The notes under the pieces: model-generated
The model's input: the letters and a program-made list of their open reading frames with translations, nothing else
Told to the model about the DNA's origin: nothing
Databases searched by the model: none
Shown: piece by piece, positions 51,301-57,895 of the stretch
Numbering within the stretch: the first letter of the stretch is position 1
How the letters are laid out: each line of letters starts with the position of its first letter
Source: Longimicrobiales bacterium
GTDB lineage: Bacteria; Gemmatimonadota; Gemmatimonadetes; Longimicrobiales; Gaopeijiaceae
DNA: 60,134 nucleotides
NCBI GenBank assembly: GCA_028823235.1
Contig: JAPKBW010000017.1
Coordinates: 1-60,134, forward strand
Direction of reading: 5' to 3'
Translations under genes and position numbers: made by a program

Positions 51301-51530
51301 CCAGTGCATGGGCAGGGGTCGGTGGTGCGATCCAGGGCTCCTCGACGCTGCCTACAGAGGACCAAATCTGGCAGGTCGACGCCGCCTGGCAAGCGGTCCC
51401 ACCACTAGTGGAGCGTCTCAACGTGCTCATCGAGATTTCTGTGCCTGCCCTCAACGACGCGCTGGACGCCGAGGGCGTAAGACCCGATCCGGGAGCCCCG
51501 CTAACCGTCCCCACCCGACGAGGCGGCTAG
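48372..51530 (+). CDS. Large exported Asp-box (BNR/sortilin-like) beta-propeller protein
   Basis: A 1052-residue protein with a signal peptide (TLALIVSAFGGIAPAPATAQA). About ten Asp-box motifs of form SxDxGxTW mark two propellers: KTGDHGTSWTPL, KSMDGGENW, RTTDGGQTW, RTMDGGANW, RSTDRGSTW, VTMDGGDTW and SIDRGESW. A fibronectin-like strand region (about 800-890) and a C-terminal helical coiled coil (ATQAAQRLTDQMEEAESLLEEY) follow. Such VPS10/sortilin-like glycosyl-hydrolase-fold proteins are abundant in Gemmatimonadota and Bacteroidota. Substrates are unknown. No sialidase Arg triad was identified. Confidence 0.88.
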   Translation: MKRIGTLALIVSAFGGIAPAPATAQAPDLATTVSRLGYREIGPALMGGRIAALAVVESKPQMFYLGTASGGLWKTGDHGTSWTPLFDDQPTSSIGDVTIDQANPNLVWVGTGEPQNRQSSPWGNGVYKSMDGGENWAHMGLEETKHIARVLIHPRNPDVVYVAAVGDLWGPSPERGVFRTTDGGQTWENVLFIDEDTGAIDLAMDPDDPMTLFAAMYQRRRTGWGFNGGGPGSGLYRTMDGGANWTELTEGLPEGDKGRIGVDIFRQDGNVVYALIEADLRSASQGFGGGGESSESGIFRSTDRGSTWEKMSDTNPRPMYYSRVEIDPSNSDRIYVLGSALMVSDDAGKTFRSDGATQIHVDHHALWINPKDPDHLILGSDGGVSASWDGTGHWRMFDNLALGQFYTISYDMRDPYAVCGGLQDNNPWCGPSNTRSFHGIRNQDWYETAYGDGFWTVVDPTDSTIVFSESQGGNMNRYDLITGEKTPMRPITGPRENGDTAKAYRFNWNAPLLISQHDPATIYLGGNYLMRSRDRGMSWEEVGGVDLTKQIDRAELEIMGVPGSEPMMSIHDGTSTYGNLTTLAESRFTPDVIYAGTDDGNLQVTMDGGDTWENVADRIPGLPERTYVSRVAPSAHAEGRIYATFDGHRNGDYSAYVYVSENYGKDWNRIDDGLPHGWSVNVITEHHRAPNLLFVGNEIGVYFSIDRGESWTQLKNNLPVVPVDDIAIHPRENDLILGTHGRSAWIMADIAPLEHLSRSVMAQSGHVFPLKTTVMWAQMGDWPFYGATYSASNPPRATPIRYYVRDEGADEHDFSVEITDSSGATVRTFDGPAEPGVNEILWNWRYDAPYETRAGEGGGGRGRGGGTPQGPIVMPGQYTVTLHVGEDDFSSTVEIQADPRRSMTMADRRARQDALMSLNHLAAPLFEATQAAQRLTDQMEEAESLLEEYQGETEALTETLAEIQKELEAVRTGLGEASAWAGVGGAIQGSSTLPTEDQIWQVDAAWQAVPPLVERLNVLIEISVPALNDALDAEGVRPDPGAPLTVPTRRGG

Positions 51531-51909
51531 GTAATCAGGCCTGCACCAGAGATAAACGCGACAACCTGATCCATAGGATCTCCTGTCCACTCCGCGACGC
51601 TCGACATCAGGCATACGGACATGACGATCCCTGCGTCGACGGCGGTAACACTCCGTATAAAGGCGTCATTCACAAAAATCGACACACTAATCACGAAGGA
51701 TACGCGCGCGCGCCACTTACAAGCCGCTTTCGCACGCGATGTGGTGACGATTTTCTTCACTGTCTAATTGTCGCCTTCACAGATTGAGAGGACGAGGGAA
51801 TACGAGTAGTACTCCCCTTAATTCTGCCCCTGTCCCGCTCAGGCCCGCAACTTAGGGACGCGCAGAACCGAGCTTGATCGCGTGAAGATACCATGGCACC
51901 TCTCGCCCA
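51531..51909. other. Intergenic stretch with repeat R2 and a doubtful small frame
   Basis: It contains repeat copy R2 (51819-51868). A minus-strand frame from GTG at 51760 to 51527 would encode 77 residues beginning KKIVTTSRAKAACKW with two hydrophobic stretches. It lies where a gene driven by R2 would be, but the ATG seen in the other copies is missing here. I leave it uncalled. It could be the remains of a repeat-associated small gene. Confidence 0.4.
51819..51868 (-). repeat. Leader/promoter repeat copy R2 (start codon lost)
   Basis: The minus strand reads TTGCGG, 18 bases, CAGAAT, then TTAAGGGGAG instead of the usual short gap and ATG. It is about 80-90% identical to R4 and R5 over 45 bases. 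The flanking sequence no longer offers a start codon at the same place. Confidence 0.65.
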
Positions 51910-52740
51910 CTATCTCCTGTATGTCCCGTCTGGCAATACAATCGGAAAGACGTATTGAGGATCAATCAATAGCTGATATATGGCCCCATCCATCTGCTCG
52001 ACCTTGGCTTTCGTATTGAGCTTCCATTCCTGTTGAATCTCACCTGCGCGGTTCTCCTGTGCCCCCAAGACTGAGGTCATCGCCCAATAGATGTACTCAG
52101 TGGCCATACAACCGTAATCACAAGTTTGGTCATCATACGTGTACCACGCCGCCCCCGGATAAGGGGTTGGAACCGACTGGAAGCGTCCACCTCTCGCGAT
52201 GTCCATAGCGTTCGTCAACGATGTGCCAGCGTCTTCTCCGAACGCATCCGGATAGGCCTTGGCAAACCCGGAGTGCGTGATGACATGCCAAATTTCTTCC
52301 AGCGCGGCATCGAATCGGCTCGTATGCCCGTTGTTATGCCAAGCAGGAACCGACTCATCTGCGCCTAGATCTTGGGCATTAATTGAACCCTGCTGGCTCT
52401 CTTGCTTCCACATATACAACGCGGCGTTGCTGGATATAAGGGCACTCATTAAAGCCGGATTGTCGACGACGCCATCTTCATCATTGTCTAGGTACTGAGC
52501 CATAATATTAGCGGCGTGCAGTAGCTTCACGTCCTCTACATTAGCGTACGCATAGATGGGCACTCCAAGAACATCAACCTTTCGATTAGTAGACGTGAAA
52601 CCCGCATCGGAATGGGCGACAATAGTGAAGTTGGGGTCGTTTCCTGGGTCTGTCGGCCCGGTAGCATCCTCGCCGCATGAGACGAGCAGGAACAAAGGAA
52701 CGAGCGGAATGGTCAGCGCGAACAGCAAGTCTTTCTTCAT
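51910..52740 (-). CDS. Lipoprotein with a WHxxTH metallopeptidase-like motif
   Basis: A 276-residue lipoprotein (MKKDLLFALTIPLVPLFLLVSC; the lipobox Cys is residue 22). The mature part has a Ca-binding-like loop YLDNDEDGVVDNP and a histidine-rich core, ALEEIWHVITHSG, followed by YPDAFGEDAG. The pattern EExWHxxTHxG recalls zincin-type helices but lacks HExxH. A further conserved-looking segment is AWYTYDDQTCDYGCMATEYIYW. The family occurs scattered in marine bacteria and protists, to my recollection, without known function. The ATG at 52740 immediately follows repeat R3. The upstream frame codons lie inside the repeat. Confidence 0.6.
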   Translation of the reverse strand: MKKDLLFALTIPLVPLFLLVSCGEDATGPTDPGNDPNFTIVAHSDAGFTSTNRKVDVLGVPIYAYANVEDVKLLHAANIMAQYLDNDEDGVVDNPALMSALISSNAALYMWKQESQQGSINAQDLGADESVPAWHNNGHTSRFDAALEEIWHVITHSGFAKAYPDAFGEDAGTSLTNAMDIARGGRFQSVPTPYPGAAWYTYDDQTCDYGCMATEYIYWAMTSVLGAQENRAGEIQQEWKLNTKAKVEQMDGAIYQLLIDPQYVFPIVLPDGTYRR

Positions 52741-52786
52741 GCCTAATTCTGCCCACACACCACTCATACCCGCAACTTCGAATGAG
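52738..52786 (-). promoter_or_regulatory. Leader/promoter repeat copy R3
   Basis: The minus strand reads TTGCGG, 18 bases, CAGAAT, TAGGC, then the ATG of the lipoprotein gene. If the hexamers are -35 and -10 boxes, transcription would begin at or within a base or two of the ATG, giving a leaderless mRNA. Confidence 0.5.
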
Positions 52787-53038
52787 TGAAACAGTGCTTG
52801 ATAGCGAGGTGCGGCTATATGCCACAGAGTGCCCGGGGCCTAATCGCCGCTTCTCAGCTGGCGTGCCACATCCTCAACATTAGGACCTGCCTCAGCATGC
52901 CCGAAAGCTATCGAGTAACCTGACCGCCCGCTCGAGGGAGCGGGGATCTGTCCACATGACCAAGCCATGCAACAACCCCGCAGGAGGCTCCGTGCTTTAG
53001 GGCACGACGGTTATCAACAGCACTCGAGGGTGAGAGAG

Positions 53039-53428
53039 CTAGGGTCCCGTTTGGACTGAACGATGTAGCTGGACTTCAAGCCTCACCGGGTCGACATGGC
53101 ACTCGTCAGCAGTCACCTCAATATCGTTCTGAGTCCACGTAACATACCCGTCCGCCACAATCGTCAGCTCGTAAAGTCCTGCTCGCTCTCCCGCTCCGAA
53201 GAGAACGTTACCCCCGACCTCCATCTCTTCACGATACGACCCTTCCACGAGGACGCCGGAAAGTCCCTCCGTTGCCTGGGCACCATCCGCCGCATCCGTG
53301 ACGGTAGCCATGACCCCGTAACGGAACTCCCTTGTGCAGATTACCGCTTGGGGCTCCGTCAATCCGCACGCCGTGCCCAAGAGGGCTAGGAGCAGCGCGG
53401 CCGCACCCGCGACAAGATATCTTGGCAT
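53039..53428 (-). CDS. Small lipoprotein with carboxypeptidase-regulatory-like fold
   Basis: A 129-residue lipoprotein (LLLALLGTACG; the lipobox Cys is residue 22). The mature part looks like a single beta-sandwich of the carboxypeptidase regulatory-like type: VMATVTDAADGAQATEGLSG, GNVLFGAGERAGLYELTI, then VADGYVTWTQNDIEVTADEC. Two cysteines (about 31 and 109) could form a disulfide. Its start codon and about 100 bases upstream are duplicated at 55.3 kb. Probably surface-exposed. Function unknown. Confidence 0.7.
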   Translation of the reverse strand: MPRYLVAGAAALLLALLGTACGLTEPQAVICTREFRYGVMATVTDAADGAQATEGLSGVLVEGSYREEMEVGGNVLFGAGERAGLYELTIVADGYVTWTQNDIEVTADECHVDPVRLEVQLHRSVQTGP

Positions 53429-53530
53429 ATCCCGGTGTACGGGTCGGGCGCTTCGATGTTCCCCCGGCCGTGCCCCCTGCGAGACCGTGTCGCGCGATAC
53501 GTGTAGACGGACGGGAAACGGACAGAGCTG
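53411..53530 (-). repeat. 120-base repeat D1, upstream region and first codons of the small lipoprotein gene
   Basis: D1 and D2 (55333-55455) share ttggcatatcccggtgtacg, cgggcgcttcgatgttcccc and gatacgtgtagacggacggg with only a few differences and small indels. The repeat covers the start codon of the small lipoprotein and its upstream DNA, so it probably includes a promoter. Confidence 0.85.
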
Positions 53531-53624
53531 TATGTAACCGTCAAGGGCGACGAGAGGAGGACGAAACTCTCTCTACGTCACTGGATGATGGTACCTATTT
53601 TTTCAGGAAACGCCGACCCCACCC

Positions 53625-54986
53625 TTATGGAGCACCACACTCCACCGCCGGCACTCTAGCCACCCCAGTCACTCTCGGCTCTCGGGCACCAGCATCCACC
53701 AAGAATGGAACGACCGTCATCATGGGTTGATCCATGCGGACAAGAACGCCTGAGCCGTCCGTCTCGGTCTGGAGTTCCAAGAGCGTGATCTGTGACTGGA
53801 GCGTAGTCACCTGTTCTGTGCTGAGCGCATAGGCGCACGGAGGGGGATCGAGTATCTGGTCCGGGGTCGGGGCGTTGTCATCCGCTCCAAACAGGTAGAA
53901 CGGTTCAGAGCGCTCCCGACCGGTGGCTTCCTTGGCCCCCGGCGCAGCTGTGACCGCGGTGACGATCTCGCTCGATCGGTTCCAGAAGAACTTTAGGACC
54001 GAGTTCATCGTCTCCTGATGGGCAGCCGCGCGCAGCGGCGCTCCCAGCTGGCTCGATGATTCGACGAGAAGCCCGAGGGCATGACGAAGCCCGACGGTAT
54101 TGCGCAGCATCCTTTCGTCTTCGCCGCCCGCCCCGCCTGGGCCCGCGCCGTATAACTCGACACTATAACCGGCTAGGGGAAGCTGATCGAAGAGGTGGTC
54201 CTCAACCAGGGCTCGCGAAAGGTCCCGGACCGGCCCGTAAACGTTGAGATTCCGAGGCCAGAGCAGCTGCAGGTCGGGCGTTGTGGCCCCTCGCTCGTGA
54301 GCGTCCACCACAAGATCCGGTCGGAAGTCCCGAATGACCTGCGCAATGGTCCGGGCCTCGGGTGAGACGAGGGCGAGATGGTCCCGGTTGATATCGACGT
54401 TGTCCGCATTGCGGCGTGTGTTCGCGACCCGTCCGTCGGGATTCGCGGTGGGAATGACTAGGACCGTGGCTGTGCTCAAAGCGTCGGGAAGCAGGCTTGC
54501 CTCGTCGAGGGCGAGGTCGCGCAGGAATTGGAGCGCAGCCTCGCGTCCTGCCGGCTCGTTCCCGTGCTGAGCGCCTACGACGAGGAGTGACGGCCCTGCC
54601 GCGATCTGATCATCGGGAGCTGGCTCCGGATAGCCGAGCCGCACGAGGTGGATCGGGCGGCCTCGGACCGACGTCCCGACCTCGGTAATTCGGACTCGGT
54701 CGGATTCGGCATCGACCGCGGCCAGAAACGCGAGTTCTTCTGAATGAGTCGTGAACTCTAGACCGCTCCGCTCCTCGAACCCGGTTACGGTAGGGCTAAC
54801 TTCCTCGGGTGGCCCGAGTCCCTGGTCCGAGCACGCTCCGAGAATCGGAAGAAGGCCGATCGCAAGCAGGGATGATCGACGCGAACGGGGGCCGGTCTCC
54901 GCACTCCACTCCGTCCGCCGCCGACTCAAGGAACCCGATGGACAAGGGCACGCTCGTACTTCGGCATCGTCGGGTCTAGAAGTCAT
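53625..54986 (-). CDS. M14-family zinc carboxypeptidase lipoprotein
   Basis: A 453-residue peptidase. It has a long polar N-terminus followed by a lipoprotein-like hydrophobic segment (SLLAIGLLPILGAC). Zinc ligands are His and Glu in VGAQHGNEPAGRE and His in LVVDAHERG. The substrate carboxylate-binding Asn-Arg is in NADNVDINRDH. The catalytic glutamate is probably in LLVESSSQLG. It should trim C-terminal residues or act as a D,L-type peptidase outside the inner membrane. The ATG at 54986 is preceded by aaggag at 12 bases. Longer frames to 55085 run into the terminator hairpin region and are rejected. Confidence 0.85.
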   Translation of the reverse strand: MTSRPDDAEVRACPCPSGSLSRRRTEWSAETGPRSRRSSLLAIGLLPILGACSDQGLGPPEEVSPTVTGFEERSGLEFTTHSEELAFLAAVDAESDRVRITEVGTSVRGRPIHLVRLGYPEPAPDDQIAAGPSLLVVGAQHGNEPAGREAALQFLRDLALDEASLLPDALSTATVLVIPTANPDGRVANTRRNADNVDINRDHLALVSPEARTIAQVIRDFRPDLVVDAHERGATTPDLQLLWPRNLNVYGPVRDLSRALVEDHLFDQLPLAGYSVELYGAGPGGAGGEDERMLRNTVGLRHALGLLVESSSQLGAPLRAAAHQETMNSVLKFFWNRSSEIVTAVTAAPGAKEATGRERSEPFYLFGADDNAPTPDQILDPPPCAYALSTEQVTTLQSQITLLELQTETDGSGVLVRMDQPMMTVVPFLVDAGAREPRVTGVARVPAVECGAP

Positions 54987-55070
54987 CAGCTTATCGGTCT
55001 CCTTCTGTTGAATTACAGGAATAGCTAAGGGGCTGGATGCACGCTCTGCCATAAGGGGATGCATAATAGC

Positions 55071-55110
55071 AAAGCCCCCCAACAACCTAAGTCATTAGAG
55101 GGCTTTTCTT
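55071..55110. terminator. Hairpin with T-tract next to the tRNA/tmRNA 3' end
   Basis: aaagccc (55071-55077) pairs with gggcttt (55100-55106), followed on the plus strand by tcttt. On the minus strand it lies directly downstream of the tRNA/tmRNA-like end, where a terminator of that gene would be expected. It can also terminate plus-strand transcription. Confidence 0.55.
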
Positions 55111-55118
55111 TCCATAAG

Positions 55119-55143
55119 TGGAGCCAGGCGGGATCGAACCGCC
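55119..55143 (-). other. 3' end of a tRNA or tmRNA gene (probable attachment-site core)
   Basis: The minus strand reads GGCGG TTCGATC CCGCC, a perfect five-base-pair T-arm with consensus loop, followed by TGGCTCCA, seven acceptor bases plus discriminator. No CCA is encoded. The GGCTCCA end fits tmRNA, whose 5' end starts GGGGC with the same G-U pair. The rest of a tRNA or tmRNA is not present: upstream sequence is a helicase-associated domain relic. A 25-base 3' end without its gene is the usual trace of integration by a tyrosine recombinase. Confidence 0.55.
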
Positions 55144-55284
55144 GAGCCTGAACCCATCCTCGGTCTTGAAGGTGGCGGGCACCCTGCAGTCGCCATGCTT
55201 TGCTTTGCAGGCCTACAGGTAATTCAGCGCCTCGCGGACAAACCCGTCGAGGTCTTCTCTTGCAGCCACTGGCGCTCCAGGCAT
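55141..55284 (-). pseudogene. Relic of a helicase-associated (HA) domain protein
   Basis: On the minus strand one frame reads EALNYL, a TAG stop at 55215-55213, then ACKAKHGDCRVPATFKTEDG and FRLG. The pattern YxxxHGDCRVPxxxxTxDGFRLGxWV is the HA repeat found in many copies behind bacterial helicase domains. The match breaks exactly where the tRNA-like T-arm begins. An internal stop and a truncated repeat show it is dead. Confidence 0.6.
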
Positions 55285-55332
55285 CGATCGACTCGCTCGC
55301 CTGGTCCCAGGTCAGTGTGATGCGGCACTAGC

Positions 55333-55455
55333 GATAAGATGTCTTGGCATATCCCGGTGTACGGGTCGGGCGCTTCGATGTTCCCCCAGCGGTGCCCCCC
55401 TGAAACGAGACCGTGCCGAGCGATACGTGTAGACGGACGGGAAACGGACAGGGCT
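55333..55455 (-). repeat. 120-base repeat D2, second copy of the lipoprotein gene start
   Basis: About 88% identical by eye to D1. The start codon of the lipoprotein is preserved, but the frame runs only MPRHLIASAASH before TGA, against MPRYLVAGAAALL in D1. It is thus an orphaned 5' end without its gene. Confidence 0.8.
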
Positions 55456-55552
55456 GGGTGCCACGGAGGAGCTAGGTGCCGCCGCGGGGATGCGCCTCTA
55501 GCCACTCGCGGGACAGACGTTGGGCTTCGGCTATTTGTTCGCGAGTCATCCG
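55454..55552 (-). repeat. 100-base repeat S1, 3' end of the Sel1 gene
   Basis: It shares gatgcgcctctagccactcg and tcggctatttgttcgcgagt with S2 (57487-57590). Differences are scattered single bases. S1 encodes the last 27 residues of the Sel1-repeat protein, including MTREQIAEAQR, and some downstream DNA. Confidence 0.85.
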
Positions 55553-56164
55553 CTGTTCTACGATGCCTTTGTTGTCCAGCGCAATCTCACTTCCTCGGTC
55601 TGCCGCGAGATTGTACCACATATAGGCTAGGACATTGTCCTCTACCACGCCTTCGCCGTTGTCGTACAAAAACCCGAGGAGGTACTGGGCATCGGCATCC
55701 CCTTGCTCGGCAGCTAACCGAACCCAGCGTGCTGCCTCCGCATAGTCCTGCGGCAGGCCGGCACCATAAATGTGCATGAGCCCGAGGTTGCTCTGGGCAG
55801 CGGCATACCCCTGCTCAGCTGCTAACCGATACCAGCGTGCCGCCTCCGCAGCGTCCTCCGGCACACCCCAGCCTTCGGAGTGCATAACCCCGAGGCCGTT
55901 CTGGGCAAGCGCATTCCCTTGCTCGGCAGCTAACCGAAACCAACGTATCGCCTCCGCATAGTCCTCCGGCACGCCTTCGCCAGTGGCGTGCATACGCCCG
56001 AGTCTGGTCTGGGCAACGGGATACCCCCGCTCGGCACAGGAACGGACATCCTCCAAGGCAGACGACGGGCTTATGTCCGCGCAAGAAGCCGATGGAGTGA
56101 CCTGTGCATCAACCCCAACGGGGATGACTGCTAGAGCAAGCGCAAATAACAGAGTTTTCTTCAT
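55472..56164 (-). CDS. Exported Sel1-repeat (TPR-like) protein
   Basis: A 230-residue protein with signal peptide (MKKTLLFALALAVIPVGVDA) and four to five Sel1 repeats of about 36 residues. Each runs A-x-x-x-L-G-x-M-H, a variable loop, then DYAEAIRWFRLAAEQG or equivalent. Examples are RLGRMHATGEGVPEDY, GLGVMHSEGWGVPED and NLGLMHIYGAGLPQDY. Sel1 arrays bind other proteins, often at the envelope. The tail MTREQIAEAQRLSREW is a common family ending. The ATG at 56164 coincides with the end of repeat R4. Four or more residues coded upstream are only the repeat. Confidence 0.85.
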   Translation of the reverse strand: MKKTLLFALALAVIPVGVDAQVTPSASCADISPSSALEDVRSCAERGYPVAQTRLGRMHATGEGVPEDYAEAIRWFRLAAEQGNALAQNGLGVMHSEGWGVPEDAAEAARWYRLAAEQGYAAAQSNLGLMHIYGAGLPQDYAEAARWVRLAAEQGDADAQYLLGFLYDNGEGVVEDNVLAYMWYNLAADRGSEIALDNKGIVEQRMTREQIAEAQRLSREWLEAHPRGGT

Positions 56165-56215
56165 GCCCCAATTCTGCCCCTGCTCCACTCAAACCCGCAA
56201 CTCAGGACGAGCAGA
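56162..56215 (-). promoter_or_regulatory. Leader/promoter repeat copy R4
   Basis: The minus strand reads TTGCGG, 18 bases, CAGAAT, TGGGGC, ATG of the Sel1 gene. The block upstream of TTGCGG (GTTCTGCTCGTCCTGAG) is shared with R5. No purine-rich ribosome site lies at normal distance, consistent with a leaderless message. Confidence 0.55.
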
Positions 56216-56232
56216 ACACTACCATACTGATC

Positions 56233-57318
56233 CTATCTATGAACTGCTGATAGAACGCTCTTGAGTATTTGATCAACGTTCTCTGGTTTCGATGAGGGAT
56301 CTACAACTTCGCCTGGGCCCAGGATGAAACCGGTACCACCAGATTGCTGTATCGCGTCCGCAACTTCACGATCAACATCAGTTGTTGAACCCGCTACCAA
56401 TGGACCGCCCGCGCTTGGTGTAATCCCGCCGATCAGGCACTTGTCAGTGCGTGTGCGCATTTCTGCGATGGATGGGCCATAGTCTTGGTCATGCCAGTTG
56501 AAAGCCTCGACAGGATAGTCGAGAACACCGTCAAAGTTTATATCGTGAGCATGCAGGTGATAGATATTGAACCAAGTCTTGCCCTTTAGCGGTTCGAGCA
56601 TCTGTAGGTCGTACGGTTTGGAAAATTCGTTGTAGAGATCCGGTGGCAGAAGGTCTAACCCCGCCCATTGATTGGCGAAAAAGACACCATCCGCCCCACC
56701 AGAGACGACCCTTTCGACGAAGCTTCGGCTAGTTTCGGTGATAACTTCGAGGGCGGCATGTACTTGTCTTGGGGAGTCCTGCATGTACTGCAGCAGCTTG
56801 CCAGGTCCTGCGATCTTTGATGCTGAGGTTAGTGGTGAAAATACCGTCTGCACAAATGGTACGTCACCGTTAAGCATTTCAAGGGCAATACGCTGAGCTT
56901 CAAGTACAATGAGATATTCACCAGCATCGCTTCGGACCGGTGTGATCTTCAGCCAGTCGTCGGGCTTTTGAATCGGGCTTTCCGCCAGGATTGGTGTATC
57001 CGATCCTCCTCGAACATTTAGTTGGACACCCCAATCCACAACAGAATACAGCCCGTAAGGAGAAAACTTGACGAAGTCCATATCAAGCCGTCGCTGAAGG
57101 TGAACTGCTAATTCTGCAAGGCGTCTCGGCGAGCGATCTTGGTTTGCCCAGTGCCACCAAAAGCTCAGCGGGGTACGGTCAGTTGGGAGATTCGCCAAGG
57201 CAGCCTCAATCCGAGCGCGGTGACTCATTTCAGTGCTGTATGCTATCGGCGGCAAGGCGGCACTAGCGATGGTCAGTCCCGCGGCGCTTAGAAACGTCCT
57301 TCGTGAAACATTATTCAA
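56233..57318 (-). CDS. Tat-exported uroporphyrinogen-decarboxylase-fold (UroD/methyltransferase-like) protein
   Basis: A 361-residue protein with a Tat-like signal (VSRRTFLSAAGLTIASAALPP) and a UroD-type TIM barrel. Landmarks are RTPLSFWWHW, RLDMDFVKFSPYG, PFVQTVFSPLTSASKIAG, GADGVFFANQWAG and NIYHLHAHDINFDG. URO-D family members are cytoplasmic decarboxylases or corrinoid methyltransferases, so export is unusual. The start is a TTG at 57318 whose last bases overlap the stop of a short upstream frame (TTGA). The gene looks AT-richer (about 50-55% GC in sampled lines) than its neighbours. Confidence 0.7.
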   Translation of the reverse strand: MNNVSRRTFLSAAGLTIASAALPPIAYSTEMSHRARIEAALANLPTDRTPLSFWWHWANQDRSPRRLAELAVHLQRRLDMDFVKFSPYGLYSVVDWGVQLNVRGGSDTPILAESPIQKPDDWLKITPVRSDAGEYLIVLEAQRIALEMLNGDVPFVQTVFSPLTSASKIAGPGKLLQYMQDSPRQVHAALEVITETSRSFVERVVSGGADGVFFANQWAGLDLLPPDLYNEFSKPYDLQMLEPLKGKTWFNIYHLHAHDINFDGVLDYPVEAFNWHDQDYGPSIAEMRTRTDKCLIGGITPSAGGPLVAGSTTDVDREVADAIQQSGGTGFILGPGEVVDPSSKPENVDQILKSVLSAVHR

Positions 57319-57413
57319 TTGAATATCACCCAGATGTTCGAGGTTTTCCGTGGGGTTGTTTCAGCACACCCGACCGCTATCAGCGCGATCCCGAATAGTA
57401 GCTTTCTATTCAT
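57315..57413 (-). CDS. 32-codon lipoprotein-leader stub coupled to the UroD-like gene
   Basis: From ATG at 57413 the frame encodes MNRKLLFGIALIAVGC and a 16-residue tail ending at TGA (57317-57315). The hydrophobic stretch and VGC form a credible lipoprotein signal. The ATG is exactly at the end of repeat R5. The stop overlaps the TTG start of the UroD-like gene by the sequence TTGA, so ribosomes could pass from one to the other. It is either a tiny lipoprotein or the surviving signal of a gene replaced by the UroD-like gene. Confidence 0.5.
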   Translation of the reverse strand: MNRKLLFGIALIAVGCAETTPRKTSNIWVIFN

Positions 57414-57465
57414 GCCCTTATTCTGCCCCTACCCTCATCGTACCCGCAACTCAGGACGAGCAGAA
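57411..57465 (-). promoter_or_regulatory. Leader/promoter repeat copy R5
   Basis: The minus strand reads TTGCGG, 18 bases, CAGAAT, AAGGGC, ATG of the lipoprotein stub. Nearly identical to R4 in the upstream block AGTGTTCTGCTCGTCCTGAG. Confidence 0.55.
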
Positions 57466-57486
57466 CACTGCTAGGCAGCTAGGTGT

Positions 57487-57590
57487 GGCTGGGTGCCACG
57501 GAGGGGGGCTAGTTGCCGCCGGGGGGATGCGCCTCTAGCCACTCGCGGGACATCCGCTGGGCTTCGGCTATTTGTTCGCGAGTCATCCGC
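57487..57590 (-). repeat. 100-base repeat S2, displaced copy of the Sel1 gene 3' end
   Basis: About 90% identical by eye to S1. Here it forms the last 26 codons and the downstream flank of a truncated FAD oxidoreductase gene. The identity ends sharply at 57590/57591, at the fusion joint. Confidence 0.85.
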
Positions 57591-57895
57591 CCCTGAATCG
57601 CCGCCTTGGCGGGGGACATGGTCTCTCCTTCGATCCGCACTAGCCGACCACCCCACTCCTGAACAAGGCCCTCGCGCTGCCAACCTTGGAGGTGGGGCCC
57701 GAGCGCTTCGTCTCGGACGGTGAAGAACTGCGCCCCGTGATCGAATCGATAGTCACTGTGCTCTCGGGTGTTAGCGCGCCCACCGGCTCGCCGGCCTTTG
57801 TCGAAGACGACAACCTCGAGGCCGGCGAGTTGCAGTGTGCGGGCGGCCATGAGGCCAGATAGTCCCGCGCCGATCACTCCGACGCGGTGGGTCAT
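57509..57895 (-). pseudogene. Chimeric gene: truncated FAD oxidoreductase fused in frame to a Sel1-protein tail
   Basis: The first 101 residues are the start of a renalase-type NAD(P)/FAD oxidoreductase: VGVIGAGLSGLMAARTL (dinucleotide loop), VVFDKGRRAGGRANTRE and YRFDHGAQFFTVRD. The family is normally about 320 residues, so about two-thirds is missing, including most of the substrate domain. After KAAIQG the frame continues as RMTREQIAEAQRMSREW and EAHPPGGN, the C-terminus of the Sel1 protein at 55.5 kb. The ATG at 57895 overlaps the SDR stop as ATGA. It may still be translated, but it cannot be a working flavoenzyme. Confidence 0.8.

Follow-up and report, generated by a model that had tools for sequence, protein, structure and literature searches.

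An intergenic repeat of about 110 bases, starting at the stop codon of one gene and ending at the ATG of the next, is present in several copies on the minus strand of the window (the whole stretch of 60,134 nucleotides that was analysed). It is a gene-junction module with two ends, best classed as a variant of the mobile promoters with cassette-like behaviour, and we lean toward the view that a mobile module of promoter and gene start was spread by horizontal transfer and by recombination assisted by homology or microhomology. The first-pass annotation had described a portable promoter block of about 50 bases; its mobility is borne out by the comparison of alleles (see below), but the block had to be redefined as half of a longer repeat whose 3' and 5' modules are interchangeable.

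The anatomy of the repeat was read from copies of nine genomes set side by side. The order within the unit is the gene end ...GGCAACTAG, a 3' module (A), the core CASTGTTYTGCKCGTCC, and a 5' module, either B1 or B2. Module A1 (CTCCGTGGCACCCAGCCACACCTAGCTATCCAG) includes the hairpin GTGGC/GCCAC, of which the pairing is mostly preserved among variants, and modules A2, A3, and A5 differ from A1 in the middle. The core of 17 bases was found at 85 places with three or fewer mismatches, as against 8 for the reversed pattern. B1 (TGAGTTGCGGG...CAGAAT-6-ATG) has the layout TTGCGG-17/18-CAGAAT, while B2 (GATCAGGCTAGTACGTTGCGA...GGAGGA...ATG) carries the Shine-Dalgarno-like sequence GGAGGA. Judging from its position right after the stop codon and its short hairpin, the A part may be a 3'-end element.

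In the window, TTGCGG-N18-CAGAAT was detected as an exact match at four sites, all on the minus strand (51821-51850, 52746-52775, 56171-56200, and 57420-57449), just where four spaced copies had been proposed. The ATG lies 6, 6, and 5 bases past CAGAAT in three of these copies, in agreement with the 5-6 bases originally given, and the claim that the copies end at start codons holds for these three, but not for the fourth (51821-51850), which has no ATG nearby, the next ORF starting with GTG at 51760. A further partial copy proposed at 1422-1448 consists of GGGGCAGAAT with weak similarity (genome E = 0.28) and should be treated as chance. The features of the window, all on the minus strand, are as follows.

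57411..57517, minus strand: complete junction repeat A1-core-B1, with TTGCGG at 57444-57449, CAGAAT at 57420-57425, and ATG at 57411-57413.
57471-57517, minus strand: A1 module of the complete repeat, beginning at GGCAACTAG, where the preceding ORF stops.
57454-57470, minus strand: core of the complete repeat, 17 bases.
56162..56221, minus strand: core (56205-56221) and B1 with TTGCGG at 56195-56200, CAGAAT at 56171-56176, and ATG at 56162-56164, abutting the 3' flank of the URO-D gene directly, with no A module between.
52738..52829, minus strand: diverged junction repeat, A1-like plus B1, with the core-like CACTGTTTCACTCATTC at 52780-52796, CAGAAT at 52746-52751, and ATG at 52738-52740.
51821..51872, minus strand: core-like sequence (51856-51872) and the promoter-like part of B1, with no ATG behind.
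55452..55480, minus strand: left part of A1 after the Sel1 gene, running into a second repeat family.
57315..57413, minus strand: 32-codon signal-peptide-like ORF MNRKLLFGIALIAVGC..., starting from the module and ending in a TGA that overlaps with the start of URO-D (TTGA).
56233..57318, minus strand: URO-D family gene (PF01208) with a Tat-like start, a horizontally acquired body found elsewhere with and without the module.
55472..56164, minus strand: gene for a Sel1-repeat exported protein, MKKTLLFALALAVIPVGVDAQ...
51910..52740, minus strand: gene for a 276-aa lipoprotein-like product, MKKDLLFALTIPLVPLFLLVSC..., of which the body occurs elsewhere with other 5' ends.
51527..51760, minus strand: 77-aa ORF with a GTG start behind the fourth copy, with a relative in UWMA-0308.
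57509..57895, minus strand: in-frame chimeric ORF, in which about 95 N-terminal residues from an amine oxidase continue into a C-terminal Sel1 tail.

The product of the 77-aa ORF is 61% identical over 79 columns to a protein of the repeat-bearing UWMA-0308 locus. The amine oxidase of the chimeric ORF is full-length (about 323 aa) in relatives, and the amine oxidase-Sel1 chimera (57.6 kb) is the kind of scar that the proposed recombination leaves. In genomes of the same genus, peptidase M14, SDR, and amine oxidase also lie next to each other, but in a different order, so the insertion point of the array could not be fixed. No Rfam family and no tRNA were found by searches of the window. Another repeat family, with a length of about 130 nt, is also located here (53399-53530 and 55322-55456, minus strand; 90-94% identical), with only two full copies in the host genome; it ends at an ATG with the lipoprotein start MPRYLVAGAAALLLALLGTACG, or at a dead copy thereof.

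In the host genome (3.14 Mb), TTGCGG-N14..20-GCAGAAT gave nine exact matches including the four window copies, and the reversed pattern gave none in the whole genome. By BLAST with the stop-to-ATG consensus, a total of 26 matches were identified on contigs C17 (the window), C31, C8, C53, C13, C6, C37, C50, C57, and C36, in a single orientation within each array contig. Since several of them are located at contig ends (C57, C6, C31, C37, C13, and C50), the true copy number is probably higher.

When modules were counted at stringent scores, higher than any reached in 5000 shuffles, the pairs obtained were A1B1 (21), A1B2 (9), A2B1 (5), A2B2 (2), A3B1 (6), and A5B1 (2). All four pairs of A1 or A2 with B1 or B2 thus exist, indicating that joining occurred in or near the core. 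Assortment of A and B types at a 17-bp core is also what a site-specific recombinase would give, and the units might then be integron-like cassettes of B, gene, and A, joined at the core by an unbinned IntI relative or another enzyme, with the cut perhaps after G in G/TT. This reading, which we consider unlikely, agrees with the arrays observed, in which single unrelated genes share one orientation and each is followed by a conserved site, as in integron arrays and CALIN, the clusters of attC sites lacking integrases (PMC9024848), and the phylum does have integrons, a large integron element being carried by Gemmatirosa kalamazoonesis (PMC9024848). Moreover, the ends GACGGCAAC and GTTYTGCKCGTC are complementary with two variable positions unpaired, true end pairs scoring 7.10 of 9 against 6.95 for permuted pairs, a weak difference (p = 0.04). 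The repeat differs from integrons, however, in several respects: no integrase (TIGR02249 over cut-off) was found in the nine genomes, all of them incomplete bins, in which the clearest tyrosine recombinases are XerC and XerD; the core reads GTTYTGC instead of GTTRRRY, and the inverse end is CGGCAAC against RYYYAAC of attC; putative promoters are carried by the units; the sites are conserved more in sequence than in structure, the folding of the repeat being near that of shuffles and not better; and block ends are scattered, some blocks stopping outside the core. The A and B halves were also found separately. No enzyme moving the module was found, and one partial match to integron integrase was located at a contig edge in an Opitutaceae bin. 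It is likewise doubtful that the units represent cassettes of a new type, that is, single genes with a leaderless promoter and a 3' hairpin, exchanged between genera by a putative recombinase at a non-integron 17-bp core. In SZUA-1190, a frameshifted tyrosine recombinase partly similar to integron integrases was noted (L133, G039:C122, about 24.2-25.0 kb); no repeats were present in the 6 kb read.

The search of the pattern in the genome and its relatives, as the first reading had advised, gave many copies, most of them placed at gene starts. Of the 45 B1 copies, 36 have an ATG or GTG 5-6 bases past the -10 box (34 at 6 bases and two at 5), and 21 ORFs behind B1 reach 60 codons in the sequence read. 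The bodies behind B1 (Sel1, MORN_2, URO-D, and unknown families) are unrelated, as had been claimed, and mostly exported. The fixed spacer of 18 bases between -35 and -10 holds within the window and in most host copies, but is replaced by 17 in most copies of other genomes. A signal peptide, once ascribed to every copy, is encoded by many B1 ORFs, such as MKKTLLF..., MTRYRARAVLLLF..., and the Tat-type MAQDRRTFLK..., but zinc ribbon-like starts such as MALIPCYECEK... and MAITQCSGC... are also present; the module does not always deliver a signal peptide. At the MNRK copy, the presumed fusion of signal peptide to body did not hold. The TGA stop of the 32-codon ORF overlaps the TTG start of URO-D, which has a Tat-type start of its own, and this overlap suggests translational coupling, not fusion.

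In most B1 copies the -10 box is located 5-6 bases ahead of the start codon, in keeping with the roughly 6-7 bases of leaderless genes, and from this spacing B1 is plausibly a sigma-70-like promoter with transcription starting at the ATG, which would bring with it the ATG and often the first signal-peptide codons. B1 was not called by a simple promoter scan, because TTGCGG matches TTGACA at only three of six positions. In the fetched sequence of the clade, Shine-Dalgarno motifs lead most starts, and TANNNT at 6-8 nt is slightly enriched. Leaderless starts, originally suggested for the repeat as a whole, are not general in the system, since B2 carries GGAGGA.

The movement of the start module ahead of new bodies is supported by sets of alleles, in which the promoter-like block is present or absent ahead of the same gene (the 276-aa gene and URO-D) in related genomes. 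The 276-aa gene has homologues in three genomes of genus g28, in which the downstream DNA is kept at 93-94% identity. In G106, A5-core-B1 is joined at the ATG; in G130, an unrelated leader with a Shine-Dalgarno-like motif is present, and similarity to G106 begins at the ATG; in G186, the difference reaches further into the gene. In genomes of the host's own genus, the N-terminus of this body is different. The sequence CATGAAGARAACCC, shared at the start of the 276-aa gene, could have served as a natural short-homology anchor. Downstream of the G130 homologue (L217, G130:C49), about 214 bp missing from G106 and G186 contain a B2-like GGAGGATGGTCAGATG and an ORF of about 60 codons, like a mini-gene added between two genes.

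URO-D is preceded by a putative B1-type promoter and signal-peptide start in the window, G186, and G269 (diverged), while its body lacks the module in G130, G001, G012, and G133. Over 1208 nt that take in the promoter-like part, the URO-D DNA of the window is 90.6% identical to that of G186, which belongs to another genus, as against 82% to that of its own genus. A glycosyltransferase segment of 1403 nt is 98.4% identical between NP105 and SZUA-1190. In NP105 this gene has an A1 fragment on one side and a Sel1 tail on the other, in a context different from that of SZUA-1190, and its junctions show microhomology of 8 and 6 bases (GCCACACC and CGCGAG); it is the only capture for which both junctions were resolved to the base. 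These junctions lie outside the core, in A1 and the Sel1 tail, and argue against the integron. For the PhoX phosphatase (Pfam), NP105 and UBA2988 are 91% identical over a shared stretch of 1554 nt that starts in A1.

These allele sets also bear on two other explanations. One is plain descent, by which old exported genes of Sel1 or MORN type, with conserved promoters and tails, were duplicated and decayed inside each genome without exchange of their starts. Many copies indeed flank Sel1 or MORN_2 genes, and the gene tails EWLEAHPPGGN and DPCPPGLEDGN recur, but neither the Sel1 nor the MORN family includes URO-D, PhoX, glycosyltransferase, or the 276-aa gene, whose bodies occur elsewhere without the module, the window URO-D is nearer to another genus than to its own, and the repeat is missing from genomes of the same genus; this explanation is already strained and seems quite improbable. 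The other is a mobile element of the MITE type, inserting ahead of genes and supplying them with a promoter. The repeat is short, multicopy, non-coding, and often at gene starts as such elements would be, but its two halves occur separately, no empty site was found, the upstream flanks being wholly different in the 276-aa gene and URO-D sets, and inspection by eye showed no terminal inverted repeat, making a MITE-like origin very improbable. In the explanation that we favour, the modules would join new gene bodies and travel with them between genera by horizontal transfer, and recombination would be anchored on the repeat itself or on short matches such as CATGAAGARAACCC and GCCACACC.

In the study of horizontal transfer, it has long been asked how newly arrived genes come to be expressed. 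In natural sets of alleles from several genera, a ready-made block, promoter-like and carrying its start codon, is joined to genes at the ATG, and the 3' module travels too. If the promoter works, the repeat would serve as a natural kit by which newly acquired genes are expressed and often also exported. Genes and their starts would be exchanged like parts within one uncultured marine family of Gemmatimonadota. No description of this repeat was found by literature searches. In the Borrelia vmp and trypanosome VSG systems, bodies between conserved flanks are moved into one expression site within one genome. The repeat is similar in that the bodies, unrelated or divergent, are bordered by conserved 5' and 3' flanks that serve in exchange, but is different in that every copy comes with a promoter-like start of its own and the spread is from genus to genus. 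In homology-facilitated illegitimate recombination, foreign DNA is joined after natural transformation through an anchor of homology, a few identical bases, or both. The pathway proposed here would use the same means, but its anchors would be a dedicated multicopy intergenic repeat. The term homology-facilitated illegitimate recombination is used in PMC6382021. Mobile promoters (Matus-Garcia et al. 2012; van Passel et al. 2014), as outlined in PMC8049555, are short promoter-like repeats before unrelated genes, thought to persist via horizontal transfer. With respect to the near-identical promoter-like sequence ahead of non-homologous genes, the 45 B1 copies are similar to them; compared with that outline, the present block differs in adding the ATG and often a signal-peptide start, in being coupled to the 3' module of the preceding gene, and in being common to several genera with allele pairs showing the joining.

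The distribution of the repeat is patchy. Besides the host, about 95 BLAST matches were obtained in eight other bins; in a class-wide sample, the repeat was found in 12 of 394 genomes, all belonging to seven genera of one Gemmatimonadota family, and within the host's genus in one of 14 genomes, the other 13 having none. All the genomes are draft, incomplete metagenome bins, in which arrays break assemblies, and with many copies at contig ends the system is probably under-counted. XerD is 53-82% identical among the Gemmatimonadota hosts, while the repeat is mostly 85-97% identical, i.e. DNA is shared between genera far above housekeeping identity, and together with the patchy distribution this indicates horizontal transfer. 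An exact 22-mer was absent from viral contigs, and thus no viral vehicle is evident; in the genome collection it matched metagenome bins exclusively, those of Gemmatimonadota being UBA2988, UBA2982, SZUA-1190, UWMA-0308, UBA1142, and NP105. One repeat-bearing contig each was also observed in a Dehalococcoidia bin and an Opitutaceae bin (L064 and L069), and both are probably mis-binned Gemmatimonadota DNA.
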